Below are positions 6,612-63,174 of a DNA stretch of 64,000 nt, piece after piece. The position numbers and the translations under genes are program-made. Position 1 is the first letter of the stretch. Every line of letters begins with the position of its first letter. The notes below the pieces were generated by a model. That model saw only the letters and a list, made by a program, of their open reading frames with translations. It was not told where the DNA came from and did not search any database. The DNA is from Closterium sp. NIES-65 (Eukaryota > Streptophyta > Zygnematophyceae > Desmidiales > Closteriaceae). The stretch covers positions 62,001 through 126,000 of the forward strand of contig CANXME010002536.1 of the NCBI GenBank assembly GCA_948144175.1. The letters run 5' to 3'.

Positions 6612-9600
6612 CCTGCTCTGCTGCAACACTCACCTGCTCTGCCGCACCACTCACCTGCTCTGCTGCACCACTCACCTGCTCTGCTGCACCACTCACCTGC
6701 TCTGCCGCACCACTCACCTGCTCTGCCGCACCACTCACCTGCTCTGCTGCACCACTCACCTGCTCTGCTGCACCACTCACCTGCTCTGCTGCACCACTCA
6801 CCTGCTCTGCTGCACCACTCACCTGCTCTGCTGCACCACTCACCTGCTCTGCTGCACCACTCACCTGCTCTGCTGCACCACTCACCTGCTCTGCTGCACC
6901 ACTCACCTGCTCTGCTGCACCACTCACCTGCTCTGCTGCACCACTCACCTGCTCTGCTGCACCACCTGCTCTGCCGCACCACTCACCTGCTCTGCCGCAC
7001 CACTCACCTGCTCTGCTGCACCACTCACCTGCTCTGCTGCACCACTCACCTGCTCTGCTGCACCACTCACCTGCTCTGCCGCACCACTCACCTGCTCTGC
7101 TGCACCACTCACCTGCTCTGCTGCACCACTCACCTGCTCTGCTGCACCACTCACCTGCTCTGCTGCACCACTCACCTGCTCTGCTGCACCACTCACCTGC
7201 TCTGCTGCACCACTCACCTGCTCTGCTGCACCACTGACCTGCTCTGCTGCACCACTCACCTGCTCTGCTGCACCACTCACCTGCTCTGCCGCACCACTCA
7301 CCTGCTCTGCCGCACCACTCACCTGCTCTGCTGCACCACTCACCTGCTCTGCTGCACCACTCACCTGCTCTGCCGCACCACTCACCTGCTCTGCCGCACC
7401 ACTCACCTGCTCTGTTGCACCACTCACCTGCTCTGCCGCACCACTCACCTGCTCTGCCGCACCACTCACCTGCTCTGCCGCACCACTCACCTGCTCTGCT
7501 GCACCACTCACCTGCTCTGCTGCACCACTCACCTGCTCTGCTGCACCACTCACCTGCTCTGCTGCACCACTCACCTGCTCTGCTGCACCACTCACCTGCT
7601 CTGCTGCACCACTCACCTGCTCTGTCGCACCACTCACCTGCTCTGCTGCACCACTCACCTGCTCTGCTGCACCACTCACCTGCTCTGCTGCACCACTCAC
7701 CTGCTCTGCCGCACCACTCACCTGCTCTGCTGCACCACTCACCTGCTCTGCTGCACCACTCACCTGCTCTGCTGCACCACTCACCTGCTCTTCTGCACCA
7801 CTCACCTGCTCTGCCGCACCACTCACCTGCTCTGCCGCACCACTCACCTGCTCTGCTGCACCACTCACCTGCTCTGCTGCACCACTCACCTGCTCTGCTG
7901 CACCACTCACCTGCTCTGCTGCACCACTCACCTGCTCTGCCGCACCACTCATCTGCTCTGCCGCACCACTCACCTGCTCTGCTGCACCACTCACCTGCTC
8001 TGCTGCACCACTCACCTGCTCTGCCGCACCACTCACCTGCTCTGCTGCACCACTCACCTGCTCTGCCGCACCACTCACCTGCTCTGCCGCACCACTCACC
8101 TGCTCTGCCGCACCACTCACCTGCTCTGCCGCACCACTCACCTGCTCTGCCGCACCACTCACCTGCTCTGCCGCACCACTCACCTGCTCTGCCGCACCAC
8201 TCACCTGCTCTGCCGCACCACTCACCTGCTCTGCCGCACCACTCACCTGCTCTGCCGCACCACTCACCTGCTCTGCCGCACCACTCACCTGCTCTGCCGC
8301 ACCACTCACCTGCTCTGCCGCACCACTCACCTGCTCTGCCGCACCACTCACCTGCTCTGCCGCACCACTCACCTGCTCTGCCGCACCGCTCACCTGCTCT
8401 GCCGCACCACTCACCTGCTCTGCCGCACCACTCACCTGCTCTGCCGCACCACTCACCTGCTCTGCCGCACCACTCACCTGCTCTGCTGCACCACTCACCT
8501 GCTCTGCCGCACCACTCACCTGCTCTGCCGCACCACTCACCTGCTCAGCCGCACCACTCACCTGCTCTGCCGCACCACTCACCTGCTCTGCCGCACCACT
8601 CACCTGCTCTGCCGCACCACTCACCTGCTCTGCCGCACCACTCACCTGCTCTGCCGCACCACTCACCTGCTCTGCCGCACCACTCACCTGCTCTGCCGCA
8701 CCACTCACCTGCTCTGCTGCACCACTCACCTGCTCTGCCGCACCACTCACCTGCTCTGCCGCACCACTCACCTGCTCTGCCGCACCACTCACCTGCTCTG
8801 CCGCACCACTCACCTGCTCTGCTGCACCACTCACCTGCTCTGCTGCACCACTCACCTGCTCTGCTGCACCACTCACCTGCTCTGCCGCACCACTCACCTG
8901 CTCTGCTGCACCACTCACCTGCTCTGCCGCACCACTCACCTGCTCTGCTGCACCACTCACCTGCTCTGCTGCACCACTCACCTGCTCTGCTGCACCACTC
9001 ACCTGCTCTGCTGCACCACTCACCTGCTCTGCCGCACCACTCACCTGCTCTGCCGCACCACTCACCTGCTCTGCTGCACCACTCACCTGCTCTGCTGCAC
9101 CACTCACCTGCTCTGCTGCACCACTCACCTGCTCTGCTGCACCACTCACCTTCTCTGCCGCACCACTCACCTGCTCTGCTGCACCACTCACCTGCTCTGC
9201 TGCACCACTCACCTGCTCTGCTGCACCACTCACCTGCTCTGCCGCACCACTCACCTGCTCTGCCGCACCACTCACCTGCTCTGCCGCACCACTCACCTGC
9301 TCTGCCGCACCACTCACCTGCTCTGCCGCACCACTCACCTGCTCTGCTGCACCACTCACCTGCTCTGCTGCACCACTCACCTGCTCTGCCGCACCACTCA
9401 CCTGCTCTGCTGCACCACTCACCTGCTCTGCCGCACCACTCACCTGCTCTGCCGCACCACTCACCTGCTCTGCTGCACCACTCACCTGCTCTGCTGCACC
9501 ACTCACCTGCTCTGCCGCACCACTCACCTGCTCTGCCGCACCACTCACCTGCTCTGCTGCACCACTCACCTGCTCTGCTGCACCACTCACCTGCTCTGCT

Positions 9601-26500: not shown

Positions 26501-29310
26501 CTGCTCTGCTGCACCACTCACCTGCTCTGCCGCACCACTCACCTGCTCTGCCGCACCACTCACCTGCTCTGCTGCACCACTCACCTGCTCTGCTGCACCA
26601 CTCACCTGCTCTGCTGCACCACTCACCTGCTCTGCTGCACCACTCACCTTCTCTGCCGCACCACTCACCTGCTCTGCTGCACCACTCACCTGCTCTGCTG
26701 CACCACTCACCTGCTCTGCTGCACCACTCACCTGCTCTGCCGCACCACTCACCTGCTCTGCCGCACCACTCACCTGCTCTGCCGCACCACTCACCTGCTC
26801 TGCCGCACCACTCACCTGCTCTGCCGCACCACTCACCTGCTCTGCTGCACCACTCACCTGCTCTGCTGCACCACTCACCTGCTCTGCCGCACCACTCACC
26901 TGCTCTGCTGCACCACTCACCTGCTCTGCCGCACCACTCACCTGCTCTGCCGCACCACTCACCTGCTCTGCTGCACCACTCACCTGCTCTGCTGCACCAC
27001 TCACCTGCTCTGCCGCACCACTCACCTGCTCTGCTGCACCACTCACCTGCTCTGCTGCACCACTCACCTGCTCTGCTGCACCACTCACCTGCTCTGCCGC
27101 ACCACTCACCTGCTCTGCTGCACCACTCACCTGCTCTGCTGCACCACTCACCTGCTCTGCTGCACCACTCATCTGCTCTGCTGCACCACTCACCTGCTCT
27201 GCTGCACCACTCACCTGCTCTGCTGCACCACTCACCTGCTCTGCTGCACCACTCACCTGCTCTGCTGCACCACTCACCTGCTCTGCCGCACCACTCACCT
27301 GCTCTGCCGCACCACTCACCTGCTCTGCTGCACCACTCACCTGCTCTGCTGCACCACTCACCTGCTCTGCCGCACCACTCACCTGCTCTGCCGCACCACT
27401 CACCTGCTCTGCCGCACCACTCACCTGCTCTGCTGCACCACTCACCTGCTCTGCTGCACCACTCACCTGCTCTGCTGCACCACTCACCTGCTCTGCTGCA
27501 CCACTCACCTGCTCTGCCGCACCACTCACCTGCTCTGCCGCACCACTCACCTGCTCTGCCGCACCACTCACCTGCTCTGCCGCACCACTCACCTGCTCTG
27601 CTGCACCACTCACCTGCTCTGCTGCACCACTCACCTGCTCTGCTGCACCACTCACCTGCTCTGCCGCACCACTCACCTGCTCTGCTGCACCACTCACCTG
27701 CTCTGCCGCACCACTCACCTGCTCTGCTGCACCACTCACCTGCTCTGCTGCACCACTCACCTGCTCTGCTGCACCACTCACCTGCTCTGCTGCACCACTC
27801 ACCTGCTCTGCTGCACCACTCACCTGCTCTGCCGCACCACTCACCTGCTCTGCTGCACCACTCACCTGCTCTGCTGCACCACTCACCTGCTCTGCTGCAC
27901 CACTCACCTGCTCTGCTGCACCACTCACCTGCTCTGCCGCACCACTCACCTGCTCTGCTGCACCACTCACCTGCTCTGCTGCACCACTCACCTGCTCTGC
28001 TGCACCACTCACCTGCTCTGCTGCACCACTCACCTGCTCTGCCGCACCACTCACCTGCTCTGCCGCACCACTCACCTGCTCTGCTGCACCACTCACCTGC
28101 TCTGCTGCACCACTCACCTGCTCTGCTGCACCACTCACCTGCTCTGCCGCACCACTCACCTGCTCTGCCGCACCACTCACCTGCTCTGCCGCACCACTCA
28201 CCTGCTCTGCCGCACCACTCACCTGCTCTGCCGCACCACTCACCTGCTCTGCTGCACCACTCACCTGCTCTGCTGCACCACTCACCTGATCTGCCGCACC
28301 ACTCACCTGCTCTGCTGCACCACTCACCTGCTCTGCTGCACCACTCACCTGCTCTGCTGCACCACTCACCTGCTCTGCTGCACCACTCACCTGCTCTGCC
28401 GCACCACTCACCTGCTCTGCTGCACCACTCACCTGCTCTGCTGCACCACTCACCTGCTCTGCTGCACCACTCACCTGCTCTGCTGCACCACTCACCTGCT
28501 CTGCCGCACCACTCACCTGCTCTGCTGCACCACTCACCTGCTCTGCTGCACCACTCACCTGCTCTGCCGCACCACTCACCTGCTCTGCTGCACCACTCAC
28601 CTGCTCTGCTGCACCACTCACCTGCTCTGCTGCACCACTCACCTGCTCTGCTGCACCACTCACCTGCTCTGCCGCACCACTCACCTGCTCTGCTGCACCA
28701 CTCACCTGCTCTGCTGCACCACTCACCTGCTCTGCTGCACCACTCACCTGCTCTGCCGCACCACTCACCTGCTCTGCCGCACCACTCACCTGCTCTGCTG
28801 CACCACTCACCTGCTCTGCCGCACCACTCACCTGCTCTGCCGCACCACTCACCTGCTCTGCTGCACCACTCACCTGCTCTGCTGCACCACTCACCTGCTC
28901 TGCTGCACCACTCACCTGCTCTGCTGCACCACTCACCTGCTCTGCTGCACTACTCACCTGCTCTGCCGCACCACTCACCTGCTCTGCCGCACCACTCACC
29001 TGCTCTGCTGCACCACTCACCTGCTCTGCTGCACCACTCACCTGCTGTGCTGCACCACTCACCTGCTCTGCCGCACCACTCACCTGCTCTGCCGCACCAC
29101 TCACCTGCTCTGCCGCACCACTCACCTGCTCTGCCGCACCACTCACCTGCTCTGCCGCTCCACTCACCTGCTCTGCTGCACCACTCACCTGCTCTGCTGC
29201 ACCAGTCACCTGCTCTGCCGCACCACTCACCTGCTCTGCTGCACCACTCACCTGCTCTGCTGCACCACTCACCTGCTCTGCTGCACCACTCACCTGCTCT
29301 GCTGCACCAG
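14575..29310. repeat. higher-order duplication inside array A, offset 9800 bp
   Basis: Marker variants recur at a fixed offset: the 17-bp unit at 14575 and 24375, GTTGCA at 15021 and 24821, GTCGCA at 15319 and 25119, CATCTGCTCTGCTG at 17368 and 27168, CACCTGATC at 18483 and 28283. By CACCAGTCAC (19421 and 29200) the offset is 9779, showing loss of one 21-bp unit. The first block is about 14.58-19.5 kb and the second about 24.38-29.3 kb. Confidence 0.8.
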
Positions 29311-34882: not shown

Positions 34883-34889
34883 GTGCGTT

Positions 34890-36088: not shown

Positions 36089-36097
36089 GTGTTTCAG

Positions 36098-37356: not shown

Positions 37357-37878
37357 ATGTATGAGCCTGTTATTATATGTGCAGGGGGATGGGGGGAGTG
37401 CAGGTTTGGTTTGGGCCAGGTTTGGGATATGAAAGAGTGGCAGAAACGGAAACAGGGAGTAGATGTGTTGCCACCTGCTTGTGTTCAGCCATGCGCAGGG
37501 CAGGACATGAGGGAGAAGAAGAGAGAGAAACAGACGCACAAGGAGGGAGCGCATGTGCCATTTTCTTCTGTCTACAACACGAGGCTATTTGCTACGACGC
37601 GTAGAGTGATAGATGACTTAGCGAATATGAATGTATGTGCTTGTTCTTATATACGCAGGCGGGCAGAGAAAGGGGGGAGGGGTGAGGGAAAAGGGAGGGG
37701 AGTGGGGAGCAGAAGCAGAACAGAAGAGGGAGTGGTGGATGAGCTCCTGGCTCTCTGTGCTGTGCGCCCCTCCCTGGTTGGCCATGCCATGCCATGCCAT
37801 GCCATGCCATGCCATGCCATGCCCGGGAGGGATATGATAGATAGGAAGCACAAAGTAGAAGCAGAAGCAGGAATGTGA
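37357..37878 (+). other. open reading frame in L, copy B (173 codons)
   Basis: Counterpart of the 88-codon frame at 263-529 without its 16-nt insertion. It contains DMREKKREKQTHKEG, then a Gly/Arg-rich stretch, then the (GCCAT)n tract translated as HAMPC repeats. Because it runs straight across ATATACGCAG, an acceptor-like site, it may be exon and intron rather than one CDS. Copy C has a 160-codon version at 48802-49284. Confidence 0.2.
37783..37822. repeat. (GCCAT)n microsatellite, about eight units
   Basis: The same site has about two units in copy A (705-720) and about seven in copy C (49227-49262). Confidence 0.9.
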
Positions 37879-38487
37879 TATGACAGGGAGCAGATATGCA
37901 TGGGCCATGCCCAGGGATGTCCAGGGCGGTTCGAGGGGGGCTGTGAGGGGCTGTGAGGAGAATTGGGGGGTAGGGGGGCCTTAGGGGGGCCTTGGGGGGG
38001 CTGTGGGGGGTTTTTTTCAGGATTTTAGGGGGGTTTTCCCCTCTCTTGTACCCCATCTCTGCTTATCAATCAATCACAAACAAGCTTTCTGCCATCACCC
38101 TTCCGATTACGCTCATGTTGTCGCCTTGCCACCTGAGGGAGGGGGATCCAGATGATCCAGGTGGTCCGGGGCCGTCCTCCTGAAATACGTATGTCAAGAT
38201 GTTGACCAGAGTGGGAGCCAGGGCAGTGTATGTAAGGGATGGTGTATGTAGGGGTGGGCAGGGCAGGTGCAAACGTAGGGGATAATGAGTGACAGAAACT
38301 GAAGGGAGAGTTAAAATTGAATCAAAGAGGGGGATAAAGAAGAAAACTGGCACAAGTTCACTACAGGTAGGCAGAATAAGTGACCAGCACAGGGGGGTAA
38401 AGTGACAAGGGCAGGGGGGTGAAGTGACAAGGGCAGGGGGGTGAAGTGACAAGGGCAGGGGGGTGAAGTGATGAGACGTGCTTTCCA

Positions 38488-38999
38488 AGGTCAAAACAAG
38501 GGCCCATTGCTGACCTACTAACACTCACCGACACGGCATGCCTCATGCGCCGACCTGTTGTGTGAAACCTGCCCCATCCTCACACCACACATCAAATCAA
38601 GCACTAGACCAGCACCCCCATGCCCTCTCACACACCTCCTCTGCAGCAGGGCTACTGGCGTCACTACCCACCAGCACCACAAGCAGCATGTTCAGGAGTC
38701 ATCTCAAACCACACCTCAACACCAGACCAACACCCTCATGACCTGTCACCTCACTCACTTCCCCTGCTGCACGGCTGCTGGCGTCACTCCCCACCACCAG
38801 CACCAGCACCAGCAACAGCAGCAGCACCATATCCAAGCACATGTGAGTGATTCGACTCAAAGCACACCTCGACCACCACACTGGCACGCCCCATGCCCTG
38901 TCACCTCACCCATGTGCTCTACAGCAGGGCTACTGGCGTCACGCCCCACCACCAGCACCAGGCTATCAGCAGCGAGTCCAGCACCCACACACCCCGTGC
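38488..38999. repeat. R1-R2-R3 lead-in repeats before array B
   Basis: Three diverged repeats start near 38604, 38724 and 38879. Each contains a GGCGTCAC core after CTACTGGC or GCTGCTGGC; plus-strand translations read GYWRHYPPAP, GCWRHSPPPAP and GYWRHAPPPAP. R2 also has a short CAG/CAC run at 38795-38830. Confidence 0.6.
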
Positions 39000-41900: not shown

Positions 41901-43683
41901 GCACCACTCACCTGCTCTGCCGCACCACTCACCTGCTCTGCCGCACCACTCACCTGCTCTGCCGCACCACTCACCTGCTCTGCTGCACCACTCACCTGCT
42001 CTGCCGCACCACTCACCTGCTCTGCCGCACCACTCACCTGCTCTGCCACACCACTCACCTGCTCTGCCGCACCACTCACCTGCTCTGCCGCACCACTCAC
42101 CTGCTCTGCTGCACCACTCACCTGCTCTGCCGCACCACTCACCTGCTCTGCCGCACCACTCACCTGCTCTGCCGCACCACTCACCTGCTCTGCCGCACCA
42201 CTCACCTGCTCTGCCACACCACTCACCTGCTCTGCCGCACCACTCACCTGCTCTGCCGCACTACTCACCTGCTCTGCTGCACCACTCACCTGCTCTGCCG
42301 CACCACTCACCTGCTCTGCCGCACCACTCACCTGCTCTGCTACACCACTCACCTGCTCTGCTACACCACTCACCTGCTCTGCCGCACCACTCACCTGCTC
42401 TGCCGCACCACTCACCTGCTCTGCCGCACCACTCACCTGCTCTGCTGCACCACTCACCTGCTCTGCCGCACCACTCACCTGCTCTGCCGCACCACTCACC
42501 TGCTCTGCCGCACCACTCACCTGCTCTGCCGCACCACTCACCTGCTCTGCCGCACCACTCACCTGCTCTGCCGCACCACTCACCTGCTCTGCCGCACCAC
42601 TCACCTGCTCTGCCGCACCACTCACCTGCTCTGCCGCACCACTCACCTGCTCTGCCGCACCACTCACCTGCTCTGCCGCACCACTCACCTGCTCTGCCGC
42701 ACCACTCACCTGCTCTGCCGCACCACTCACCTGCTCTGCCGCACCACTCACCTGCTCTGCTGCACCACTCACCTGCTCTGCTGCACCACTCACCTGCTCT
42801 GCCGCACCACTCACCTGCTCTGCTGCACCACTCACCTGCTCTGCCGCACCACTCACCTGCTCTGCCGCACCACTCACCTGCTCTGCCGCACCACTCACCT
42901 GCTCTGCTGCACCACTCACCTGCTCTGCTGCACCACTCACCTGCTCTGCTGCACCACTCACCTGCTCTGCTGCACCACTCACCTGCTCTGCTGCACCACT
43001 CACCTGCTCTGCTGCACCAGTCACCTGCTCTGCTGCACCACTCACCTGCTCTGCTGCACCACTCACCTGCTCTGCTGCACCACTCACCTGCTCTGCTGCA
43101 CCACTCACCTGCTCTGCTGCACCACTCACCTGCTCTGCTGCACCACTCACCTGCTCTGCTGCACCACTCACCTGCTCTGCTGCACCACTCACCTGCTCTG
43201 CTGCACCACTCACCTGCTCTGCTGCACCACTCACCTGCTCTGCTGCACCACTCACCTGCTCTGCTGCACCACTCACCTGCTCTGCTGCACCACTCACCTG
43301 CTCTGCCGCACCACTCACCTGCTCTGCCGCACCACTCACCTGCTCTGCCGCACCACTCACCTGCTCTGCTGCACCACTCACCTGCTCTGCCGCACCACTC
43401 ACCTGCTCTGCTGCACCACTCACCTGCTCTGCTGCACCACTCACCTGCTCTGCCGCACCACTCACCTGCTCTGCTGCACCACTCACCTGCTCTGCCGCAC
43501 CACTCACCTGCTCTGCCGCACCACTCACCTGCTCTGCTGCACCACTCACCTGCTCTGCTGCACCACTTACCTGCTCTGCTGCACCACTCACCTGCTCTGC
43601 TGCACCACTCACCTGCTCTGCTGCACCACTCACCTGCTCTGCTGCACCACTCACCTGCTCTGCTGCACCACTCACCTGCTCTC
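39000..43683. repeat. 21-bp minisatellite array B (about 223 units)
   Basis: Same unit as array A, but with private variants: TACACC (near 39829, 40327, 40432 and others), CACACC (41057, 41786, 42046, 42209), shortened units at about 40033, 40055, 40832 and 40890, and a long all-CTG run at 42901-43300. All three plus frames are open. A minus frame of 973 codons enters from the right flank (43897). Confidence 0.97.
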
Positions 43684-43897
43684 GGGCATCTCTGCACCCC
43701 CTAAACCTCCTTAACAACTGAGGCTCAACACCCTTTCTCTTCCTTGCACCTCCATCACTCCCTCTATGTCGCTCGCTGCCCTTCGTGTCTCTCTCTTTTA
43801 TCCCAGCCCAATGGTGGAAGTGAAGCTTGTCCCGGTCAGCATCCAACCAATCAATCTGTTGGCGTAACCACGGTGCTGAATGGCGAAAATCGGTCAC
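40976..43897 (-). other. long open frame entering array B from unique sequence
   Basis: The frame starts MTDFRHSAPWLRQQ in unique R sequence, has about 70 non-repetitive residues rich in Arg and Lys, then reads the array as VSGAAEQ heptads. Copies A and C carry one extra base in the CTCTTTTTATCCC tract, which breaks the link between the unique part and the heptads. Since the repeat is stop-free by composition, only the 70-residue part is informative. Low confidence as a gene. Confidence 0.15.
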
Positions 43898-45845: not shown

Positions 45846-45854
45846 GTGCGTTGT

Positions 45855-46990
45855 GAGTCATTTGACCAATCCCCTCCTCTGTCCCCTTTGTTTTGAGTCA
45901 TTTGACCAATCCCCTCCTCTCTCCTCTTTGTTTTGAGTCATTTGACCAATCCCCTCCTCTCTCCCCTCTGTTTTGAGTCATTTGACCAATCCCCTCCTCT
46001 CTCCTCTTTGTTTTGAGTCATTTGACCAATCCCCTCCTCTCTTCCCCCTGTTTTGAGTCATTTGACCAATCCCCTACTCTCTCCCCTCTGTTTTGAGTCA
46101 TTTGACCAATCCCCTCCTCTCCCCTCTTTGTTCTGAGTCATTTGACCAATCCCCTCCTCTCTTCCCCCTGTTTTGAGTCATTTGACCAATCCCCTACTCT
46201 CTTCCCCTCTGTTTTGAGTCATTTGACCAATCCCCTCATCTCTCCTATTCGTTTTGAGTCATTTAACCAATTCCCTCCTCTCTCCTCTTTGTTTCGAGTC
46301 ATTTCACCAATCCCTCCTCTCTCTCTCCTCTTTGTTTTGAGTCATTTGACCAATCCCCTCCTCTCTCCCCTCAGTTTTGAGTCATTTCACCAATCCCCTC
46401 CTCTCTCCTCTCTGTTTTGAGTCATTTGACCAATCCCCTCCTCTCCCCTATTTGTTTTGAGTCATTTGTCCAATCCCCTCCTCTCTCCTATTTGTTTTGA
46501 GTCATTTGACCAATCCCCTCCTCTCTCTCTGTTTTGAGTCATTTCACCTATCCCCTCTCTCCTCTTGTTTCGACTCATTTGACCAATCCCCTCCTCTCTC
46601 CCCTCAGTTTTGAGTCTTTTCACCAATCCCCTCCTCTCTCCTCTTTGTTTTGAGTCATTTGACCAATCCCCTCGTCTCTCCCCTCTGTTTTGAATCATTT
46701 GACCAATCCCCTCCTATCTCCCCTCTGTTCTGAGTCATTTGACCAATCCCCTCTTCTCTCCCCTCTGTTTTGAGCCATTTGACCAATCCCCTCCTCTCTC
46801 TCTGTTTTGAGTCATTTCACCTATCCCCTCCTCTCTCCTCTTTGTTTCGACTCATTTGACCAATCCCCTCCTCTCTCCCCTCAGTTTTGAGTCTTTTCAC
46901 CAATCCCCTCCTCTCTCCTCTTTGTTTTGAGTCATTTGACCAATCCCCTCCTCTCTCCCCTCTGTTTCGAGTCATTTGACCAATGCCTCA
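45855..46990. repeat. 40-bp tandem array (about 28 units), copy B
   Basis: Unit-by-unit counterpart of 34890-36030, with the same order of variant units and a few small indels, so it was duplicated as a block and has changed little since. Confidence 0.95.
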
Positions 46991-47057
46991 TCTCCCCTCC
47001 CCTCCCCTCTCCTCCCTCCCTCCCTCCCTCCCTCCCTCCCTCCCTCCCTCCCTCCCC
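46991..47057. repeat. (CCCT)n microsatellite, copy B
   Basis: Longer counterpart of 36031-36088, just before the GTGTTTCAG acceptor-like site. Confidence 0.9.
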
Positions 47058-48088: not shown

Positions 48089-48537
48089 GTGCCTTAGTTG
48101 GTACTTTACGTTTTTTTGGGTCACGTAAACGTAAACTTACGCTTGAGTTTACCTTTACGTTTTCTTACGCGTAATTTTACGTAAAGTCACACGGGCAGGG
48201 CAAAAAAAAGTTTTTTTGCCCGCGAAACGAAAAAATCTGACTGATATGAGGTGGGAGAGGCTGCTACATGTTTGTGTAGATTTGGGGCATCTGTAAGTTG
48301 ATGTAATAATGTGCTAACATGCTTGGGCGTAGAAGAACCAAGGTAGTGATAGATTAGGCGCTTCCCATGCAGCCACTTAGTCCGATGATTTCTTATATTT
48401 CCGGGCAGTTAGAACTGTTTCTAGCTGACCGTAAACGTAAAGCCATTTTTAGCCCACGTAAGTAAACGTAAGTTTACTACGTAAAGTCACGTAAACGTAA
48501 ACCACCGTAAACGTACAATACCAACTAAGCCAGGTGC
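48085..48537. mobile_element. 437-bp non-autonomous TIR transposon with 8-bp target-site duplication
   Basis: The element spans 48093-48529. Its ends are CTTAGTTGGTA and TACCAACTAAG, an 11-bp perfect inverted repeat that extends to 21 bp with two mismatches. The flanking direct repeat CCAGGTGC (48085-48092 and 48530-48537) occurs once at the empty sites in the other copies. Subterminal regions are packed with CGTAAACGTAA motifs. A central hairpin lies at 48198-48221 (GGGCAAAAAAA arms). No transposase ORF. An 8-bp duplication suits hAT, but the tips do not match the usual hAT consensus, so the superfamily is left open. Confidence 0.85.
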
Positions 48538-48539: not shown

Positions 48540-50108
48540 TGTGAGTCGCCCCAGAGCATGCACTGCACACCTTGCCATATCCCTCACACCTGCCATCCCA
48601 CCATGCCCTCACACCTCCTGCCATCCCCTCACTTGCCCTGCTCCCCCCGCTCACTTGCTCCGCTTCCCCTCTCCCCCACCCCAACTCCCCCCCTCCCCTT
48701 GCGCAGGTGCCAGCTTCCCTCCTGTCGCCAAGACGAACACACTTGGCTTGCAATGTGTAGAGTGGTAGGGATTGATGAATCTGATTACGTTAGGAACATA
48801 AATGTATGAGCCTGTTATTATATGTGCAGGGGGATGGGGGGAGTGCAGGTTTGGTTTGGGCCAGGTTTGGGATATGAAAGAGTGGCAGAAACGGAAACAG
48901 GGAGTAGATGTGTTGCCACCTGCTTGTGTTCAGCCATGCGCAGGGCAGGACATGAGGGAGAAGAAGAGAGAGAAACAGACGCACAAGGAGGGAGCGCATG
49001 TGCCATTTTCTCCTGTCGACAACACGAGGCTATTTGCTACGACGCGTAGAGTGATAGATGACTTAGCGAATATGAATGTATGTGCTTGTTCTTATATACG
49101 CAGGCGGGCAGAGAAAGGGGGGAGGGGTGAGGGAAAAGGGAGGGGAGTGGGGAGCAGAAGCAGAACAGAAGAGGGAGTGGTGGATGAGCTCCTGGCTCTC
49201 TGTGCTGTGCGCCCCTCCCTGGTTGGCCATGCCATGCCATGCCATGCCATGCCATGCCATGCCCGGGAGGGATATGATAGATAGGAAGCACAAAGTAGAA
49301 GCAGAAGCAGGAATGTGATATGACAGGGAGCAGATATGCATCATGGGCCATGCCCAGGGATTTCCAGGGCGGTTCGAGGGGGGCTGTGAGGGGCTGTGAG
49401 GAGAATTGGGGGGTAGGGGGGCCTTAGGGGGGCCTTGGGGGGGCTGTGGGGGGGTTTTTTCAGGATTTTAGGGGGGTTTTCTCCCCTCTCTTGTACCCCA
49501 TTTCTGCTTATTAACCAATCACAAGCAAGTTTTCTGCCATCACCTTTCCGATTACGCTCATGTTGTCGCCTTGCCGCCTGAGGAGGGGGAGGGGAGTAAG
49601 GGGGGAAGGGAGAGGAGAGCAGAAGGGAGAGCAAGGGGGGATGAGAGAGACGATATGCGCTGCTTGTTTTGATTTGCACACAGAAGGAGAGTGTGAGAAG
49701 GAGAGTGAGAGAAGGAGGGTGTGAGAAGGAGAGTGTGAGAAGGAGTGCCATACAGTGAAGTACTCGGGTATCTTGGGCACTGCAAAGCAGAAGCGTTGCA
49801 AGGAATGTGATCCAGATGATCCAGGTGGTCCGGGGCCGTCCTCCTGAACTACGTATGTCAAGATGTTGACCAGAGTGGGAGCCAGGGCAGTGTATGTAAG
49901 GGGTGGTGTATGTAGGGGTGGGCAGGGCAGGTGCAAACGTAGGGGATAATGAGTGACAGAAACTGAAGGGAGAGTGAGAATTGAATCAAAGAGGGGGAGA
50001 AAGAAGAAAAGTGGCACAAGTTCACTACAGGTAGGCAGGACAAGTGACCAGCACAGGGGGGTGAAGTGACAAGGGCAGGGGGGTGAAGTGATGAGACGTG
50101 CTTTCCAA
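48540..50108. repeat. duplicon copy C, left flank (L)
   Basis: Matches 1-1717, retaining the segment missing in B. One unit of the 22-bp VNTR remains. Confidence 0.9.
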
Positions 50109-50490
50109 GGTCAAAACAAGGGCCCATTGCTGACCTACTAACACTCACCGACATGGCATGCCTCATGCGCCGACCTGTCGTGTGAAACCTGCCCCATCCT
50201 CACACCACACATCAAATCAAGCACTAGACCAACACCCCCATGCCCTCTCACACACCTCCTCTGCAGCAGGGCTACTGGCGTCACTACCCACCAGCAGCAC
50301 AAGCAGCATGTTCAGGAGTCATCTCAAACCACACCTCAACACCAGACCAACACCCTCATGACCTGTCACCTCACTCGCTTCCCCTGCTGCACGGCTGCTG
50401 GCGTCACTCCCCACCACCAGCACCAGCAGCAGCAGCAGCAGCAGCATATCCAACCACATGTGAGTGATTCGATTCAAAGCACACCTCGAC
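50109..50490. repeat. R1-R2 lead-in repeats before array C
   Basis: Matches 38488-38870 of copy B. R3 is missing: CACCTCGACCAC runs straight into the 21-bp array at 50491. Confidence 0.75.
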
Positions 50491-53400
50491 CACTCACCTG
50501 CTCTGCTGCACCACTCACCTGCTCTGCTGCACCACTCACCTGCTCTGCTGCACCACTCACCTGCTCTGCCGCACCACTCACCTGCTCTGCTGCACCACTC
50601 ACCTGCTCTGCCGCACCACTCACCTGCTCTGCCGCACCACTCACCTGCTCTGGTGCACCACTCACCTGCTCTGCCGCACCACTCACCTGCTCTGCCGCAC
50701 CACTCACCTGCTCTGCCGCACCACTCACCTGCTCTGGTGCACCACTCACCTGCTCTGCCGCACCACTCACCTGCTCTGCTGCACCACTCACCTGCTCTGC
50801 CGCACCACTCACCTGCTCTGCTGCACCACTCACCTGCTCTGCCGCACCACTCACCTGCTCTGTCGCACCACTCACCTGCTCTGCCGCACCACTCACCTGC
50901 TCTGCCGCACCACTCACCTGCTCTGCCGCACCACTCACCTGCTCTGCCGCACCACTCACCTGCTCTGCCGCACCACTCACCTGCTCTGCTGCACCACTCA
51001 CCTGCTCTGCTGCACCACCACTCACCTGCTCTGCTGCACCACTCACCTGCTCTGCCGCACCACTCACCTGCTCTGCCGCACCACTCACCTGCTCTGCTGC
51101 ACCACTCACCTGCTCTGCCGCACCACTCACCTGCTCTGCTGCACCACTCACCTGCTCTGCTGCACCACTCACCTGCTCTGCTGCACCACTCACCTGCTCT
51201 GCTGCACCACTCACCTGCTCTGCTGCACCACTCACCTGCTCTGCTGCACCACTCACCTGCTCTGCTGCACCACTCACCTGCTCTGCTGCACCACTCACCT
51301 GCTCTGCCGCACCACTCACCTGCTCTGTCGCACCACTCACCTGCTCTGCCGCACCACTCACCTGCTCTGCCGCACCACTCACCTGCTCTGCTGCACCACT
51401 CACCTGCTCTGCTGCACCACCACTCACCTGCTCTGCTGCACCACTCACCTGCTCTGCCGCACCACTCACCTGCTCTGCCGCACCACTCACCTGCTCTGCA
51501 CCACCACTCACCTGCTCTGCCGCACCACTCACCTGCTCTGCTGCACCACTCACCTGCTCTGCTGCACCACTCACCTGCTCTGCTGCACCACTCACCTGCT
51601 CTGCTGCACCACTCACCTGCTCTGCTGCACCACTCACCTGCTCTGCTGCACCACTCACCTGCTCTGCTGCACCACTCACCTGCTCTGCTGCACCACTCAC
51701 CTGCTCTGCTGCACCACTCACCTGCTCTGCTGCACCACTCACCTGCTCTGCTGCACCACTCTCCTGCTCTGCCGCACCACTCACCTGCTCTGCCGCACCA
51801 GTCACCTGCTCTGCCGCACCACTCACCTGCTCTGCCGCACCACTCACCTGCTCTGCCGCACCACTCACCTGCTCTGCCGCACCACTCTCCTGCTCTGCCG
51901 CACCACTCACCTGCTCTGCCGCACCACCCACCTGCTCTGCCGCACCACTCACCTGCTCTGCCGCACCACTCACCTGCTCTGCCGCACCACTCACCTGCTC
52001 TGCCGCACCACTCACCTGCTCTGCCGCACCACTCACCTGCTCTGCCGCACCACTCACCTGCTCTGCCGCACCACTCACCTGCTCTGCCGCACCACTCACC
52101 TGCTCTGCCGCACCACTCACCTGCTCTGCCGCACCACTCACCTGCTCTGCCGCACCACTCACCTGCTCTGCCGCACCACTCACCTGCTCTGCCGCACCAC
52201 TCACCTGCTCTGCCGCACCACTCACCTGCTCTGCCGCACCACTCACCTGCTCTGCCGCACCACTCACCTGCTCTGCTGCACCACTCACCTGCTCTGCCGC
52301 ACCACTCACCTGCTCTGCTGCACCACTCACCTGCTCTGCCGCACCACTCACCTGCTCTGTCGCACCACTCACCTGCTCTGCCGCACCACTCACCTGCTCT
52401 GTCGCACCACTCACCTGCTCTGCCGCACCACTCACCTGCTCTGCCGCACCACTCACCTGCTCTGCCGCACCACTCACCTGCTCTGCCGCACCACTCACCT
52501 GCTCTGCCGCACCACTCACCTGCTCTGCTGCACCACTCACCTGCTCTGCCGCACCACTCACCTGCTCTGTCGCACCACTCACCTGCTCTGCCGCACCACT
52601 CACCTGCTCTGCCGCACCACTCACCTGCTCTGCTGCACCACTCACCTGCTCTGCTGCACCACCACTCACCTGCTCTGCTGCACCACTCACCTGCTCTGCC
52701 GCACCACTCACCTGCTCTGCCGCACCACTCACCTGCTCTGCTGCACCACTCACCTGCTCTGCCGCACCACTCACCTGCTCTGCTGCACCACTCACCTGCT
52801 CTGCTGCACCACTCACCTGCTCTGCTGCACCACTCACCTGCTCTGCTGCACCACTCACCTGCTCTGCTGCACCACTCACCTGCTCTGCTGCACCACTCAC
52901 CTGCTCTGCTGCACCACTCACCTGCTCTGTCGCACCACTCACCTGCTCTGCCGCACCACTCACCTGCTCTGCCGCACCACTCACCTGCTCTGCCGCACCA
53001 CTCACCTGCTCTGCCGCACCACTCACCTGCTCTGCCGCACCACTCACCTGCTCTGCCGCACCACTCACCTGCTCTGCCGCACCACTCACCTGCTCTGCCG
53101 CACCACTCACCTGCTCTGCCGCACCACTCACCTGCTCTGCCGCACCACTCACCTGCTCTGCCGCACCACTCACCTGCTCTGCCGCACCACTCACCTGCTC
53201 TGCCGCACCACTCACCTGCTCTGCCGCACCACTCACCTGCTCTGCCGCACCACTCACCTGCTCTGCCGCACCACTCACCTGCTCTGCTGCACCACTCACC
53301 TGCTCTGCCGCACCACTCACCTGCTCTGCTGCACCACTCACCTGCTCTGCCGCACCACTCACCTGCTCTGTCGCACCACTCACCTGCTCTGCCGCACCAC

Positions 53401-56400
53401 TCACCTGCTCTGTCGCACCACTCACCTGCTCTGCCGCACCACTCACCTGCTCTGCCGCACCACTCACCTGCTCTGCCGCACCACTCACCTGCTCTGCCGC
53501 ACCACTCACCTGCTCTGCCGCACCACTCACCTGCTCTGCTGCACCACTCACCTGCTCTGCCGCACCACTCACCTGCTCTGTCGCACCACTCACCTGCTCT
53601 GCCGCACCACTCACCTGCTCTGCCGCACCACTCACCTGCTCTGCTGCACCACTCACCTGCTCTGCTGCACCACCACTCACCTGCTCTGCTGCACCACTCA
53701 CCTGCTCTGCCGCACCACTCACCTGCTCTGCCGCACCACTCACCTGCTCTGCTGCACCACTCACCTGCTCTGCCGCACCACTCACCTGCTCTGCTGCACC
53801 ACTCACCTGCTCTGCTGCACCACTCACCTGCTCTGCTGCACCACTCACCTGCTCTGCTGCACCACTCACCTGCTCTGCTGCACCACTCACCTGCTCTGCT
53901 GCACCACTCACCTGCTCTGCTGCACCACTCACCTGCTCTGCTGCACCACTCACCTGCTCTGCCGCACCACTCACCTGCTCTGTCGCACCACTCACCTGCT
54001 CTGCCGCACCACTCACCTGCTCTGCTGCACCACTCACCTGCTCTGCCGCACCACTCACCTGCTCTGCTGCACCACTCACCTGCTCTGCCGCACCACTCAC
54101 CTGCTCTGCCGCACCACTCACCTGCTCTGCAGCACCACTCACCTGCTCTGCTGCACCACTCACCTGCTCTGCTGCACCACTCACCTGCTCTGCCGCACCA
54201 CTCACCTGCTCTGCCGCACCACTCACCTGCTCTGCCGCACCACTCACCTGCTCTGCTGCACCACTCACCTGCTCTGCCTGCACCACTCACCTGCTCTGCC
54301 TGCACCACTCACCTGCTCTGCTGCACCACTCACCTGCTCTGCTGCACCACTCACCTGCTCTGCTGCACCACTCACCTGCTCTGCTGCACCACTCACCTGC
54401 TCTGCTGCACCACTCACCTGCTCTGCTGCACCACTCACCTGCTCTGCTGCACCACTCACCTGCTCTGCCGCACCACTCACCTGCTCTGTCGCACCACTCA
54501 CCTGCTCTGCCGCACCACTCACCTGCTCTGCTGCACCACTCACCTGCTCTGCCGCACCACTCACCTGCTCTGCTGCACCACTCACCTGCTCTGCCGCACC
54601 ACTCACCTGCTCTGTCGCACCACTCACCTGCTCTGCCGCACCACTCACCTGCTCTGCTGCACCACTCACCTGCTCTGCCGCACCACTCACCTGCTCTGCT
54701 GCACCACTCACCTGCTCTGCCGCACCACTCACCTGCTCTGCCGCACCACTCACCTGCTCTGCAGCACCACTCACCTGCTCTGCTGCACCACTCACCTGCT
54801 CTGCTGCACCACTCACCTGCTCTGCCGCACCACTCACCTGCTCTGCCGCACCACTCACCTGCTCTGCCGCACCACTCACCTGCTCTGCCGCACCACTCAC
54901 CTGCTCTGCCGCACCACTCACCTGCTCTGCTGCACCACTCACCTGCTCTGCCGCACCACTCACCTGCTCTGTCGCACCACTCACCTGCTCTGCCGCACCA
55001 CTCACCTGCTCTGCCGCACCACTCACCTGCTCTGCTGCACCACTCACCTGCTCTGCTGCACCACCACTCACCTGCTCTGCTGCACCACTCACCTGCTCTG
55101 CCGCACCACTCACCTGCTCTGCCGCACCACTCACCTGCTCTGCTGCACCACTCACCTGCTCTGCCGCACCACTCACCTGCTCTGCTGCACCACTCACCTG
55201 CTCTGCTGCACCACTCACCTGCTCTGCTGCACCACTCACCTGCTCTGCTGCACCACTCACCTGCTCTGCTGCACCACTCACCTGCTCTGCTGCACCACTC
55301 ACCTGCTCTGCTGCACCACTCACCTGCTCTGCTGCACCACTCACCTGCTCTGCTGCACCACTCACCTGCTCTGCCGCACCACTCACCTGCTCTGTCGCAC
55401 CACTCACCTGCTCTGCCGCACCACTCACCTGCTCTGCTGCACCACTCACCTGCTCTGCCGCACCACTCACCTGCTCTGCTGCACCACTCACCTGCTCTGC
55501 CGCACCACTCACCTGCTCTGCCGCACCACTCACCTGCTCTGCAGCACCACTCACCTGCTCTGCTGCACCACTCACCTGCTCTGCTGCACCACTCACCTGC
55601 TCTGCCGCACCACTCACCTGCTCTGCCGCACCACTCACCTGCTCTGCCGCACCACTCACCTGCTCTGCCGCACCACTCACCTGCTCTGCCGCACCACTCA
55701 CCTGCTCTGCCGCACCACTCTACCTGCTCTGCCGCACCACTCACCTGCTCTGCCGCACCACTCACCTGCTCTGCCGCACCACTCACCTGCTCTGCCGCAC
55801 CACTCACCTGCTCTGCCGCACCACTCACCTGCTCTGCCGCACAACTCACCTGCTCTGCCGCACCACTCACCTGCTCTGCCGCACCACTCACCTGCTCTGC
55901 CGCACCACTCACCTGCTCTGCCGCACCACTCACCTGCTCTGCCGCACCACTCACCTGCTCTGCCGCACCACTCACCTGCTCTGCCGCACCACTCACCTGC
56001 TCTGTCGCACCACTCACCTGCTCTGCCGCACCACTCACCTGCTCTGCCGCACCACTCACCTGCTCTGGTGCACCACTCACCTGCTCTGCCGCACCACTCA
56101 CCTGCTCTGTCGCACCACTCACCTGCTCTGCCGCACCACTCACCTGCTCTGTCGCACCACTCACCTGCTCTGCCGCACCACTCACCTGCTCTGCCGCACC
56201 ACTCACCTGCTCTGCCGCACCACTCACCTGCTCTGCTGCACCACTCACCTGCTCTGCCGCACCACTCACCTGCTCTGCTGCACCACTCACCTGCTCTGCC
56301 GCACCACTCACCTGCTCTGCCGCACCACTCACCTGCTCTGCAGCACCACTCACCTGCTCTGCTGCACCACTCACCTGCTCTGCTGCACCACTCACCTGCT

Positions 56401-59400
56401 CTGCCGCACCACTCACCTGCTCTGCCGCACCACTCACCTGCTCTGCCGCACCACTCACCTGCTCTGCCGCACCACTCACCTGCTCTGCCGCACCACTCAC
56501 CTGCTCTGCCGCACCACTTACCTGCTCTGCCGCACCACTCACCTGCTCTGCCGCACCACTCACCTGCTCTGCCGCACCACTCACCTGCTCTGCCGCACCA
56601 CTCACCTGCTCTGCCGCACCACTCACCTGCTCTGCCGCACCACTCACCTGCTCTGCCGCACCACTCACCTGCTCTGCCGCACCACTCACCTGCTCTGCCG
56701 CACCACTCACCTGCTCTGCCGCACCACTCACCTGCTCTGCCGCACCACTCACCTGCTCTGCCGCACCACTCACCTGCTCTGCCGCACCCTCACTGCTCTG
56801 CCGCACTCACCTGCTCTGCCGCACCACTCACCTGCTCTGCCGCACCACTCACCTGCTCTGCCGCACCACTCACCTGCTCTGCCGCACCACTCACCTGCTC
56901 TGCCGCACCACTCACCTGCTCTGCCGCACCACTCACCTGCTCTGCCGCACCACTCACCTGCTCTGCCGCACCACTCACCTGCTCTGCCGCACCACTCACC
57001 TGCTCTGCCGCACCACTCACCTGCTCTGCCGCACCACTCACCTGCTCTGTCGCACCACTCACCTGCTCTGCCGCACCACTCACCTGCTCTGCCGCACCAC
57101 TCACCTGCTCTGGTGCACCACTCACCTGCTCTGCCGCACCACTCACCTGCTCTGCCGCACCACTCACCTGCTCTGCCGCACCACTCACCTGCTCTGCTGC
57201 ACCACTCACCTGCTCTGCCGCACCACTCACCTGCTCTGCTGCACCACTCACCTGCTCTGCCGCACCACTCACCTGCTCTGTCGCACCACTCACCTGCTCT
57301 GCCGCACCACTCACCTGCTCTGTCGCACCACTCACCTGCTCTGCCGCACCACTCACCTGCTCTGCCGCACCACTCACCTGCTCTGCCGCACCACTCACCT
57401 GCTCTGCCGCACCACTCACCTGCTCTGCCGCACCACTCACCTGCTCTGCTGCACCACTCACCTGCTCTGCCGCACCACTCACCTGCTCTGTCGCACCACT
57501 CACCTGCTCTGCCGCACCACTCACCTGCTCTGCCGCACCACTCACCTGCTCTGCTGCACCACTCACCTGCTCTGCTGCACCACCACTCACCTGCTCTGCT
57601 GCACCACTCACCTGCTCTGCCGCACCACTCACCTGCTCTGCCGCACCACTCACCTGCTCTGCTGCACCACTCACCTGCTCTGCCGCACCACTCACCTGCT
57701 CTGCTGCACCACTCACCTGCTCTGCTGCACCACTCACCTGCTCTGCTGCACCACTCACCTGCTCTGCTGCACCACTCACCTGCTCTGCTGCACCACTCAC
57801 CTGCTCTGCTGCACCACTCACCTGCTCTGCTGCACCACTCACCTGCTCTGCTGCACCACTCACCTGCTCTGCTGCACCACTCACCTGCTCTGCCGCACCA
57901 CTCACCTGCTCTGTCGCACCACTCACCTGCTCTGCCGCACCACTCACCTGCTCTGCGCACCACTCACCTGCTCTGCTGCACCACTCACCTGCTCTGCTGC
58001 ACCACCACTCACCTGCTCTGCTGCACCACTCACCTGCTCTGCCGCACCACTCACCTGCTCTGCCGCACCACTCACCTGCTCTGCTGCACCACTCACCTGC
58101 TCTGCCGCACCACTCACCTGCTCTGCTGCACCACTCACCTGCTCTGCTGCACCACCACTCACCTGCTCTGCTGCACCACTCACCTGCTCTGCCGCACCAC
58201 TCACCTGCTCTGCCGCACCACTCACCTGCTCTGCTGCACCACTCACCTGCTCTGCTGCACCACTCACCTGCTCTGCTGCACCACTCACCTGCTCTGCTGC
58301 ACCACTCACCTGCTCTGCTGCACCACTCACCTGCTCTGCTGCACCACTCACCTGCTCTGCTGCACCACTCACCTGCTCTGCTGCACCACTCACCTGCTCT
58401 GCTGCACCACTCTCCTGCTCTGCCGCACCACTCACCTGCTCTGCCGCACCAGTCACCCTGCTCTGCCGCACCACTCACCTGCTCTGCCGCACCACTCACC
58501 TGCTCTGCTGCACCACTCACCTGCTCTGCTGCACCACTCACCTGCTCTGCCGCACCACTCACCTGCTCTGCCGCACCACTCACCTGCTCTGCCGCACCAC
58601 TCACCTGCTCTGCCGCACCACTCACCTGCTCTGCTGCACCACTCACCTGCTCTGCCGCACCACTCACCTGCTCTGCCGCGCCACTCACCTGCTCTGCCGC
58701 ACCACTCACCTGCTCTGCCGCACCACTCACCTGCTCTGCCGCACCACTCACCTGCTCTGCCGCACCACTCACCTGCTCTGCCGCACCACTCACCTGCTCT
58801 GCCGCACCACTCACCTGCTCTGCCGCACCACTCACCTGCTCTGCCGCACCACTCACCTGCTCTGCCGCACCACTCACCTGCTCTGCCGCACCACTCACCT
58901 GCTCTGCCGCACCACTCACCTGCTCTGCCGCACCACTCACCTGCTCTGCCGCACCACTCACCTGCTCTGCCGCACCACTCACCTGCTCTGCCGCACCACT
59001 CACCTGCTCTGCCGCACCACTCACCTGCTCTGCCGCACCACTCACCTGCTCTGCCGCACCACTCACCTGCTCTGCCGCACCACTCACCTGCTCTGCCGCA
59101 CCACTCACCTGCTCTGCCGCACCACTCACCTGCTCTGCCGCACCACTCACCTGCTCTGCCGCACCACTCACCTGCTCTGCCGCACCACTCACCTGCTCTG
59201 CCGCACCACTCACCTGCTCTGCCGCACCACTCACCTGCTCTGCCGCACCACTCACCTGCTCTGCCGCACCACTCACCTGCTCTGCCGCACCACTCACCTG
59301 CTCTGCCGCACCACTCACCTGCTCTGCCGCACCACTCACCTGCTCTGCCGCACCACTCACCTGCTCTGCCGCACCACTCACCTGCTCTGCCGCACCACTC

Positions 59401-62400
59401 ACCTGCTCTGCCGCACCACTCACCTGCTCTGCCGCACCACTCACCTGCTCTGCCGCACCACTCACCTGCTCTGCCGCACCACTCACCTGCTCTGCCGCAC
59501 CACTCACCTGCTCTGCCGCACCACTCACCTGCTCTGCCGCACCACTCACCTGCTCTGCCGCACCACTCACCTGCTCTGCCGCACCACTCACCTGCTCTGC
59601 CGCACCACTCACCTGCTCTGCCGCACCACTCACCTGCTCTGCCGCACCACTCACCTGCTCTGCCGCACCACTCACCTGCTCTGCGCACCACTCACCTGCT
59701 CTGCCGCACCACTCACCTGCTCTGGTGCACCACTCACCTGCTCTGCCGCACCACTCACCTGCTCTGCCGCACCACTCACCTGCTCTGCCGCACCACTCAC
59801 CTGCTCTGCTGCACCACTCACCTGCTCTGCCGCACCACTCACCTGCTCTGCTGCACCACTCACCTGCTCTGCCGCACAACTCACCTGCTCTGTCGCACCA
59901 CTCACCTGCTCTGCCGCACCACTCACCTGCTCTGTCGCACCACTCACCTGCTCTGCCGCACCACTCACCTGCTCTGCCGCACCACTCACCTGCTCTGCCG
60001 CACCACTCACCTGCTCTGCCGCACCACTCACCTGCTCTGCCGCACCACTCACCTGCTCTGCTGCACCACTCACCTGCTCTGCCGCACCACTCACCTGCTC
60101 TGTCGCACCACTCACCTGCTCTGCCGCACCACTCACCTGCTCTGCCGCACCACTCACCTGCTCTGCTGCACCACTCACCTGCTCTGCTGCACCACCACTC
60201 ACCTGCTCTGCTGCACCACTCACCTGCTCTGCCGCACCACTCACCTGCTCTGCCGCACCACTCACCTGCTCTGCTGCACCACTCACCTGCTCTGCCGCAC
60301 CACTCACCTGCTCTGCTGCACCACTCACCTGCTCTGCCGCACCACTCACCTGCTCTGCCGCACCACTCACCTGCTCTGCCGCACCACTCACCTGCTCTGC
60401 CGCACCACTCACCTGCTCTGCCGCACCACTCACCTGCTCTGCCGCACCACTCACCTGCTCTGCCGCACCACTCACCTGCTCTGCCGCACCACTCACCTGC
60501 TCTGCCGCACCACTCACCTGCTCTGCCGCACCACTCACCTGCTCTGCCGCACCACTCACCTGCTCTGCTGCACCACTCACCTGCTCTGCCGCACCACTCA
60601 CCTGCTCTGCCGCACCACTCACCTGCTCTGCCGCACCACTCACCTGCTCTGCCGCACCACTCACCTGCTCTGCCGCACCACTCACCTGCTCTGCCGCACC
60701 ACTCACCTGCTCTGCCGCACCACTCACCTGCTCTGCTGCACCACTCACCTGCTCTGCCGCACCACTCACCTGCTCTGCCGCACCACTCACCTGCTCTGCC
60801 GCACCACTCACCTGCTCTGCCGCACCACTCACCTGCTCTGCCGCACCACTCACCTGCTCTGCCGCACCACTCACCTGCTCTGCCGCACCACTCACCTGCT
60901 CTGCTGCACCACTCACCTGCTCTGCTGCACCACTCACCTGCTCTGCCGCACCACTCACCTGCTCTGCCGCACCACTCACCTGCTCTGCCGCACCACTCAC
61001 CTGCTCTGCCGCACCACTCACCTGCTCTGCCGCACCACTCACCTGCTCTGCCGCACCACTCACCTGCTCTGCCGCACCACTCACCTGCTCTGCCGCACCA
61101 CTCACCTGCTCTGCTGCACCACTCACCTGCTCTGCCGCACCACTCACCTGCTCTGCCGCACCACTCACCTGCTCTGCCGCACCACTCACCTGCTCTGCCG
61201 CACCACTCACCTGCTCTGCCGCACCACTCACCTGCTCTGCCGCACCACTCACCTGCTCTGCTGCACCACTCACCTGCTCTGCTGCACCACTCACCTGCTC
61301 TGCCGCACCACTCACCTGCTCTGCCGCACCACTCACCTGCTCTGCCGCACCACTCACCTGCTCTGCTGCACCACTCACCTGCTCTGCCGCACCACTCACC
61401 TGCTCTGCCGCACCACTCACCTGCTCTGCCGCACCACTCACCTGCTCTGCCGCACCACTCACCTGCTCTGCCGCACCACTCACCTGCTCTGCCGCACCAC
61501 TCACCTGCTCTGCCGCACCACTCACCTGCTCTGCTGCACCACTCACCTGCTCTGCTGCACCACTCACCTGCTCTGCCGCACCACTCACCTGCTCTGCCGC
61601 ACCACTCACCTGCTCTGCCGCACCACTCACCTGCTCTGCCGCACCACTCACCTGCTCTGCCGCACCACTCACCTGCTCTGCCGCACCACTCACCTGCTCT
61701 GCCGCACCACTCACCTGCTCTGCCGCACCACTCACCTGCTCTGCTGCACCACTCACCTGCTCTGCCGCACCACTCACCTGCTCTGTCGCACCACTCACCT
61801 GCTCTGCCGCACCACTCACCTGCTCTGCCGCACCACTCACCTGCTCTGCTGCACCACTCACCTGCTCTGCTGCACCACCACTCACCTGCTCTGCTGCACC
61901 ACTCACCTGCTCTGCCGCACCACTCACCTGCTCTGCCGCACCACTCACCTGCTCTGCTGCACCACTCACCTGCTCTGCCGCACCACTCACCTGCTCTGCT
62001 GCACCACTCACCTGCTCTGCCGCACCACTCACCTGCTCTGCCGCACCACTCACCTGCTCTGCCGCACCACTCACCTGCTCTGCCGCACCACTCACCTGCT
62101 CTGCCGCACCACTCACCTGCTCTGCCGCACCACTCACCTGCTCTGCCGCACCACTCACCTGCTCTGCCGCACCACTCACCTGCTCTGCCGCACCACTCAC
62201 CTGCTCTGCCGCACCACTCACCTGCTCTGCCGCACCACTCACCTGCTCTGCCGCACCACTCACCTGCTCTGCCGCACCACTCACCTGCTCTGCCGCACCA
62301 CTCACCTGCTCTGCCGCACCACTCACCTGCTCTGCCGCACCACTCACCAGCTCTGCCGCACCACTCACCAGCTCTGCCGCACCACTCACCTGCTCTGCCG

Positions 62401-63174
62401 CACCACTCACCTGCTCTGCCGCACCACTCACCAGCTCTGCCGCACCACTCACCAGCTCTGCCGCACCACTCACCTGCTCTGCCGCACCACTCACCTGCTC
62501 TGCCGCACCACTCACCTGCTCTGCCGCACCACTCACCTGCTCTGCTGCACCACTCACCTGCTCTGCTGCACCACTCACCTGCTCTGCCGCACCACTCACC
62601 TGCTCTGCCGCACCACTCACCTGCTCTGCCGCACCACTCACCTGCTCTGCTGCACCACTCACCTGCTCTGCCGCACCACTCACCTGCTCTGCTGCACCAC
62701 TCACCTGCTCTGCCGCACCACTCACCTGCTCTGCCGCACCACTCACCTGCTCTGCCGCACCACTCACCTGCTCTGCTGCACCACTCACCTGCTCTGCCGC
62801 ACCACTCACCTGCTCTGCCGCACCACTCACCTGCTCTGCCGCACCACTCACCTGCTCTGCCGCACCACTCACCTGCTCTGCCGCACCACTCACCTGCTCT
62901 GCCGCACCACTCACCTGCTCTGCCGCACCACTCACCTGCTCTGCCGCACCACTCACCTGCTCTGCTGCACCACTCACCTGCTCTGCCGCACCACTCACCT
63001 GCTCTGCTGCACCACTCACCTGCTCTGCTGCACCACTCACCTGCTCTGCTGCACCACTCACCTGCTCTGCTGCACCACTCACCTGCTCTGCTGCACCACT
63101 CACCTGCTCTGCTGCACCACTCACCTGCTCTGCTGCACCACTCACCTGCTCTGCTGCACCACTCACCTGCTCTC
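50491..63174. repeat. 21-bp minisatellite array C (about 604 units)
   Basis: Same unit, with its own marker, a 24-bp unit carrying an extra CCA (TGCACCACCACTC) at 51011, 51413, 52655, 53666, 55057, 57576, 57998, 58148, 60188 and 61871. The 52655-53666 pair marks a tandem higher-order unit of about 1011 bp. A CACCAGCTC variant occurs four times at 62347-62455. A uniform run of about 49 CCG-type units spans 58.66-59.69 kb. The only break in the repeat pattern is a damaged stretch at 56785-56815. All plus frames are open by composition, so no CDS is called. Confidence 0.97.

Follow-up and report, generated by a model that had tools for sequence, protein, structure and literature searches.

Giant 21-bp tandem arrays that probably arose as a mirage minisatellite at a splice junction of a pyridoxal kinase gene

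The window analysed here is a stretch of 64,000 bp (contig C2238:62001-126000; C2238 is 195,301 bp long), and the genome searched comprises 874 Mb in 2,400 contigs. Giant tandem arrays occupy about two thirds of the window (43,493 of the 64,000 bases, 68.0%), as the initial annotation had proposed; its reading that the three arrays (26.1, 4.7 and 12.7 kb) share one 21-bp unit and one right boundary was borne out by TRF and the unit variants, and by the recurrence of CTCTCGGGCATCTC at 32741, 43679 and 63170. TRF merges the three arrays into a single 21-bp record (score 43,338), and two unit variants dominate, CCTGCTCTGC[C/T]GCACCACTCA on the plus strand. The arrays and their right boundaries are:

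6612-32744 (26,133 bp), source-gene sense on the minus strand: array A, about 1,244-1,246 units, with 1,205 exact CAGGTGAGT on the minus strand and 0 on the plus strand
32741-32754, plus strand: right boundary of array A, exact match to CTCTCGGGCATCTC; the boundary 33-mer recurs genome-wide
39000-43682 (4,683 bp), minus strand: array B, about 223 units, with 218 exact CAGGTGAGT on the minus strand
43679-43692, plus strand: right boundary of array B, match to CTCTCGGGCATCTC
50497-63173 (12,677 bp), minus strand: array C, about 604 units, with 589 exact CAGGTGAGT on the minus strand
63170-63183, plus strand: right boundary of array C, match to CTCTCGGGCATCTC

Along the whole contig there are 12 such arrays including those of the window, ranging from 336 bp to 26.2 kb and all in a single orientation. 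GC skew on the plus strand is about -0.55, so that the sense (minus) strand is G-rich. Rfam and tRNA scans of the window (ARAGORN for tRNA) gave no match, and a 46-base two-unit pattern had no exact match in viral_contigs or genome_contigs.

The spacers between the window arrays are copies of one duplicon, in agreement with the earlier suggestion that the arrays lie within tandem copies of a longer unit; among the 12 arrays of C2238 the duplicon copies have diverged. The two spacers are:

32745-38999 (contig 94745-100999): duplicon spacer 1, 100.0% identical over 6,255 bp to contig 26991-33245
43683-50496: duplicon spacer 2, carrying a 437-bp insertion at 48093-48529

The same contig segment, 26991-33245, is 97.8% identical to spacer 2 (contig 105683-110095) over 4,420 aligned positions. 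The termini of the 437-bp insertion are inverted (CTTAGTTGGTA...TACCAACTAAG), it is flanked on each side by the 8-bp repeat CCAGGTGC, and an empty site is present in other copies; it looks like a hAT-type MITE. A second minisatellite, of 40 bp and about 28 copies, is present in two spacers (window 34887-36023 and 45850-46999). Paired plus-strand ATGs (33795 and 33964; 44757 and 44926), reading MGHGI[ST]IS before GTAAGC, lie about 1 kb to the right of arrays. Two candidate coding sequences were rejected: a small spliced ORF from the second ATG (MGHGISIS, 33964; 42 aa, spliced by eye) had no Pfam match, and a plus-strand exon-like module beginning ASFSCRQDEDTLHREQM likewise had no Pfam match and shows frame shifts in some copies. 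In addition, tRNA-like fragments with the ends GGACCAG...CTGGTCC were seen at about 6196-6272 of the window and in three stretches of contig C179 (L015, L018 and L031); ARAGORN called no tRNA in the window, L015 or L018, and the 5' part of the tRNA-Glu-like fragment of L015 presumably resembles a plant gene.

Read on the minus strand, the unit of the arrays is GTGAGTGGTGC[A/G]GCAGAGCAG, and adjoining units together make CAG|GTGAGT, which is the consensus 5' splice site. This motif occurs exactly 2,012 times on the minus strand of the window, and not once on its plus strand or outside the arrays. A lead was given by a two-copy form beside the peptide DGTSSPAVEQ and by a fuller exon-like peptide nearby, both on C2238. 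A protein search of the same genome with the query QVVITSMEVDGRLVVVGSDASSPAVEQVR returned 68 matches, and the best 8 of the 68 were read. In 8 of these 8 the exon, here called exon C, leads directly into a short array (...VVITSMEVDGQLLVVGSDASSPAVEQ followed by VGAAEQ(VSGAAEQ)n), and the tandem units cross the exon-intron boundary at all of them, as they do in the gene on contig C1872 described below. At the junction the exon end GCTGTAGAGCAG is followed by an 18-nt first unit and then by 21-nt units, and the last 12 nt of the unit, its exon part, agree with the exon-end bases at 10 of 12 positions. In sequence, the minus-strand unit resembles the final 12 nt of this exon joined to the 9 nt with which the following intron opens, in what is probably a pyridoxal kinase gene.

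The assignment to pyridoxal kinase comes from one of the 68 exon matches, on the 6.2-Mb contig C1872, where an 18-bp array of 17.9 copies starts in the last bases of the same exon end. Peptides on the same strand around this match include VVPVATLITPNQFEAQQLTG, SIRTQADAITACDMLHAAGPRK, GTGDLMTALLLGWSH and NPHDLARAAELAVASLQ, among others; joined, they matched seven mammalian-type pyridoxal kinases of the PDB in phmmer (E 2.1e-24 to 3.7e-23), covering both halves of the protein, and PF08543 in Pfam (E 1.6e-08). Exons for the first part of the protein were matched in the neighbouring 10 kb of C1872 with a human query. By homology, this putative gene is a pyridoxal kinase, the vitamin B6 enzyme.

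Exon-like sequence had been said to adjoin the arrays of the window, and tblastn confirmed it: remnants of exon C lie on the minus strand beside each of the three, together with two copies of the next exon:

6529-6588, minus strand: exon C-end remnant LAADSLVLVVGRDASSPAVE by array A (tblastn, E 0.004)
38917-38976, 38765-38803 and 38636-38680, minus strand: three exon C-end remnants by array B (tblastn E 0.001 to 0.024; translation)
50385-50423 and 50256-50300, minus strand: two exon C-end remnants by array C (tblastn E 0.024 and 3.8e-04)
1212-1262, minus strand: putative pyridoxal kinase exon C2 (the next exon), SLQRFCFAVPKIPEYFT (E 1.65e-07 against the peptide of the C1872 gene)
49754-49804, minus strand: putative pyridoxal kinase exon C2, SLQRFCFAVPKIPEYFT (E 1.65e-07 against the peptide of the C1872 gene)

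A tblastn search for exon C2 at the matching place of another window spacer gave no match. On C2238 as a whole, 11 of the 12 arrays have exon C-end remnants no more than about 100 bp from their left end; beside the first array, which starts 772 bp from the contig end, tblastn found none. The full exon C is absent from the right boundary of the window arrays, and therefore the link between the window and pyridoxal kinase runs via copies elsewhere, of which the window arrays appear to be derivatives that lack the full exon. Other flanks exist: exon B adjoins two short arrays of C2238 (contig 180,780 and 193,361), and array copies on C179 have further kinds of flank. From what the copies share and where they differ, we infer that the side of the arrays downstream in the sense of the gene is mostly common, and that on the upstream side the cuts fell at several different points.

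Taken together, the arrays are probably a giant mirage minisatellite born at the splice junction of the pyridoxal kinase gene. In the proposed course of events, the exon end with its 5' splice site (...AGAGCAG|GTGAGTGGT..., on the minus strand here) would have been duplicated in tandem at the junction, in line with the short-array copies that keep the exon. Part of the putative pyridoxal kinase gene was amplified as the tandem duplicon seen in the window, and in some copies the upstream exon may then have been lost, leaving the array free, as observed, with CTCTCGGGCATCTC as its boundary. Some arrays would have reached 26 kb through block duplication or unequal exchange, and finished arrays, unit number included, appear to have been copied when whole duplicons, as they stand in the assembly, were duplicated. 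It may be speculated that transcription of the G-rich sense strand favours instability.

The spread of the duplicon can be followed through its boundaries. The right-boundary 33-mer was found at 81 places in 17 contigs (78 exact; 0 for the reversed control) and the left boundary at 125 places, the 100 of them that were listed falling in 18 contigs; the duplicon with its arrays has spread over at least 18 contigs. Among the places listed, 16 of 18 contigs have all copies in a single orientation, and C1738 and C1744 have both orientations. The 64 left-right spans among them have a median of 4,645 bp, with 15 between 3,369 and 3,452 bp; spans above about 20 kb may hold other structures, those read at the sequence level being the ones of C2238. 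A 35-mer taken from the T-type unit matches the genome exactly at 4,437 places, of which 1,302 are on C2238. Unit number varies widely among the duplicon copies of this contig, from 17 to 1,246. Arrays 2, 3, 4 and 6 (contig 33246, 44210, 52963 and 101000) contain 223, 223, 222 and 223 units with nearly the same variant map, and arrays 1 and 5 (contig 772 and 68612, the latter being array A) 1,246 units each; barring a repetition within the assembly, the agreement in counts and maps indicates that duplicons were copied with their arrays already complete. Within the array at 68612, agreement between units rises from a baseline of 0.44 to 0.50-0.51 at lags 122 and 229-230, with higher values at lags 1-6, a weak sign of block duplication.

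That the array lengths and the near-identical 41.7-kb duplication are products of the assembly is an unlikely explanation, albeit the most serious of the alternatives. Contig positions 1-41758 recur at 67836-109521, including the 6,255 bp of complete identity, and the start of the contig (C2238 1-2000, L001) is noisier than its inner copy, with 16 mismatches and 86 gap positions. Against this, the copies differ again further in (e.g., 4 mismatches and 14 gap positions in the last part), array C and the arrays at contig 128563 and 157918 have variant maps of their own, and copies of the boundary occur on 17-18 contigs with many span lengths among the places listed.

A structural centromeric or subtelomeric satellite, in which the likeness to a splice junction would be secondary or due to chance, is less probable still. 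The initial annotation had pointed out that blocks this long of so short a unit usually belong to such satellites; the blocks themselves stand in the assembly, and their kilobase arrays, head-to-tail duplicons, wide distribution and prevailing single orientation would suit a satellite. An ordinary satellite is not supported by the unit itself, with its exon end and 5' splice site of apparent pyridoxal kinase origin: at all of the short-array loci read (the best 8 of 68) the array starts precisely where the exon ends, at a consensus donor, a separate array occupies this junction on C1872, and exon remnants adjoin nearly every array of C2238. Plant-type telomere repeats are frequent, with 2,139 and 681 exact matches genome-wide, which together with the tRNA-Glu-like fragment suggests a genome of the green lineage; among the matches listed (100 of 2,820) they fall in 4 contigs, none of which is an array contig.

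A coding repeat, from which the minus strand would give a protein of VSGAAEQ heptads or the plus strand one of PAL[LP]HHS heptads, is highly improbable: the eight short-array copies (best 8 of 68) are open for 169-313 aa, the C/T site is a wobble position in the VSGAAEQ frame and the plus frames of arrays A-C contain only 0-2 stops each, but 35 of 3,696 units in 11 arrays have frame-shifting lengths, so that the frame is not kept through an array, the minus frames of array A contain 164 to 595 stops, the unit has no stop in any plus frame, which makes openness of that strand automatic, and the Pfam matches of the minus-strand repeat (ice-binding beta-roll and others) fit composition and not a family.

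The probable splice-junction origin of the arrays has close parallels in amphioxus. Mirage minisatellites are described there (PMC3087553, PMC3902484) in Adh3, where unit lengths are 10-72 bp, in the globins BflGb6 and BflGb9 and in troponin C, with similar repeats in PGBD5; as here, tandem repeats extend across an exon-intron boundary and the splice signal is repeated. The arrays are of the same kind, and what differs is lineage, scale and detachment from the exon: the present arrays belong probably to the green lineage, reach 26 kb and 1,246 units against, e.g., 3-6 units in BflGb6, and, unlike those of amphioxus, appear to have become detached from the host exon and to have been copied as part of a duplicon. 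In amphioxus, regular splicing is also reported. Tandem duplication over an exon-intron boundary that copies splice signals is known as well; there, one duplication yields a new intron, whereas in the present arrays a short donor unit is repeated hundreds of times and no new intron is seen. In macrosatellites with an inner variable repeat, a larger tandem duplicon encloses a variable array, and the two are copied together. The present arrays would be alike in this nesting, and differ in that the splice-junction origin of the inner unit is visible. A literature search had no match for the phrase "mirage minisatellite" and, among the titles listed, no algal or plant case and no satellite derived from splice sites.

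It is rare that one can see where satellite-like DNA originated. A single genome here contains what appear to be different stages: an array with an 18-bp unit inside a gene, short arrays of the 21-bp unit next to an exon that is still present, and arrays of up to 26 kb that stand apart from it. The origin of satellites, and perhaps of new introns, from splice junctions thereby becomes testable outside amphioxus. Conservation of the donors was assessed in 2,920 units (5 of the 12 arrays; units with at most two changes), copies counting as non-independent events. The nine donor positions had a mean of 9.2 variant copies and the others 15.9, or 9.2 when positions 10 and 12, which flank the C/T site of the unit, are left out; the last exon base, with 1 variant copy, and the T of GT, with 3, showed little variation, but the G of GT had 19. 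There is no clear sign of conservation or selection on the donors. We judge the arrays to be neutral by-products, which would have no specific job and would persist because duplication outpaces loss.

A wider and much more tentative proposal, which we consider possible though rather doubtful, is that splice donors in this genome are repeatedly duplicated in tandem by a mutational process of its own, through which genes give rise to new satellites. On this reading, a 26-kb array, if transcribed from the minus strand, would carry more than 1,200 consensus U1-binding sites and could be a U1 decoy. Comparison of each junction with the next 300 bp (score >= 18) gave 5 of 11 donors against 33% of random gene positions (p = 0.28), and 1 of 11 acceptors. 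Around the C1872 gene, an array edge unit spans 4 of 11 donors, which belong to two unrelated genes, and none of 11 acceptors, against an expected 6.1% (p = 0.003). This second test was devised after seeing the data and includes the lead exon, without which it gives 3 of 10 (about 0.02 by hand). The two tests disagree, and a donor-specific process is suggestive only. In a third test, 5 of 55 arrays had an 8/9 donor match in a unit (shuffled mean 0.55; 0 of 500 shuffles reached 5), two of the five lying in stretch L053, which had been chosen for study, and one in L055 on the strand opposite the gene. The second gene, putatively multicopper-oxidase-like by its motifs, contains a 31-bp array of 4.9 copies (L054 5961-6115) whose unit spans the donor, with a plausible next exon after it. 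Four other 10-kb stretches of C1872 consist of 18-40% tandem repeat, and big arrays are therefore not as unusual for this genome as they might seem. Inside the putative pyridoxal kinase gene of this contig, a minisatellite of 16/24 bp occupies 4.3 kb (L053 5682-9997) and runs on into L055.
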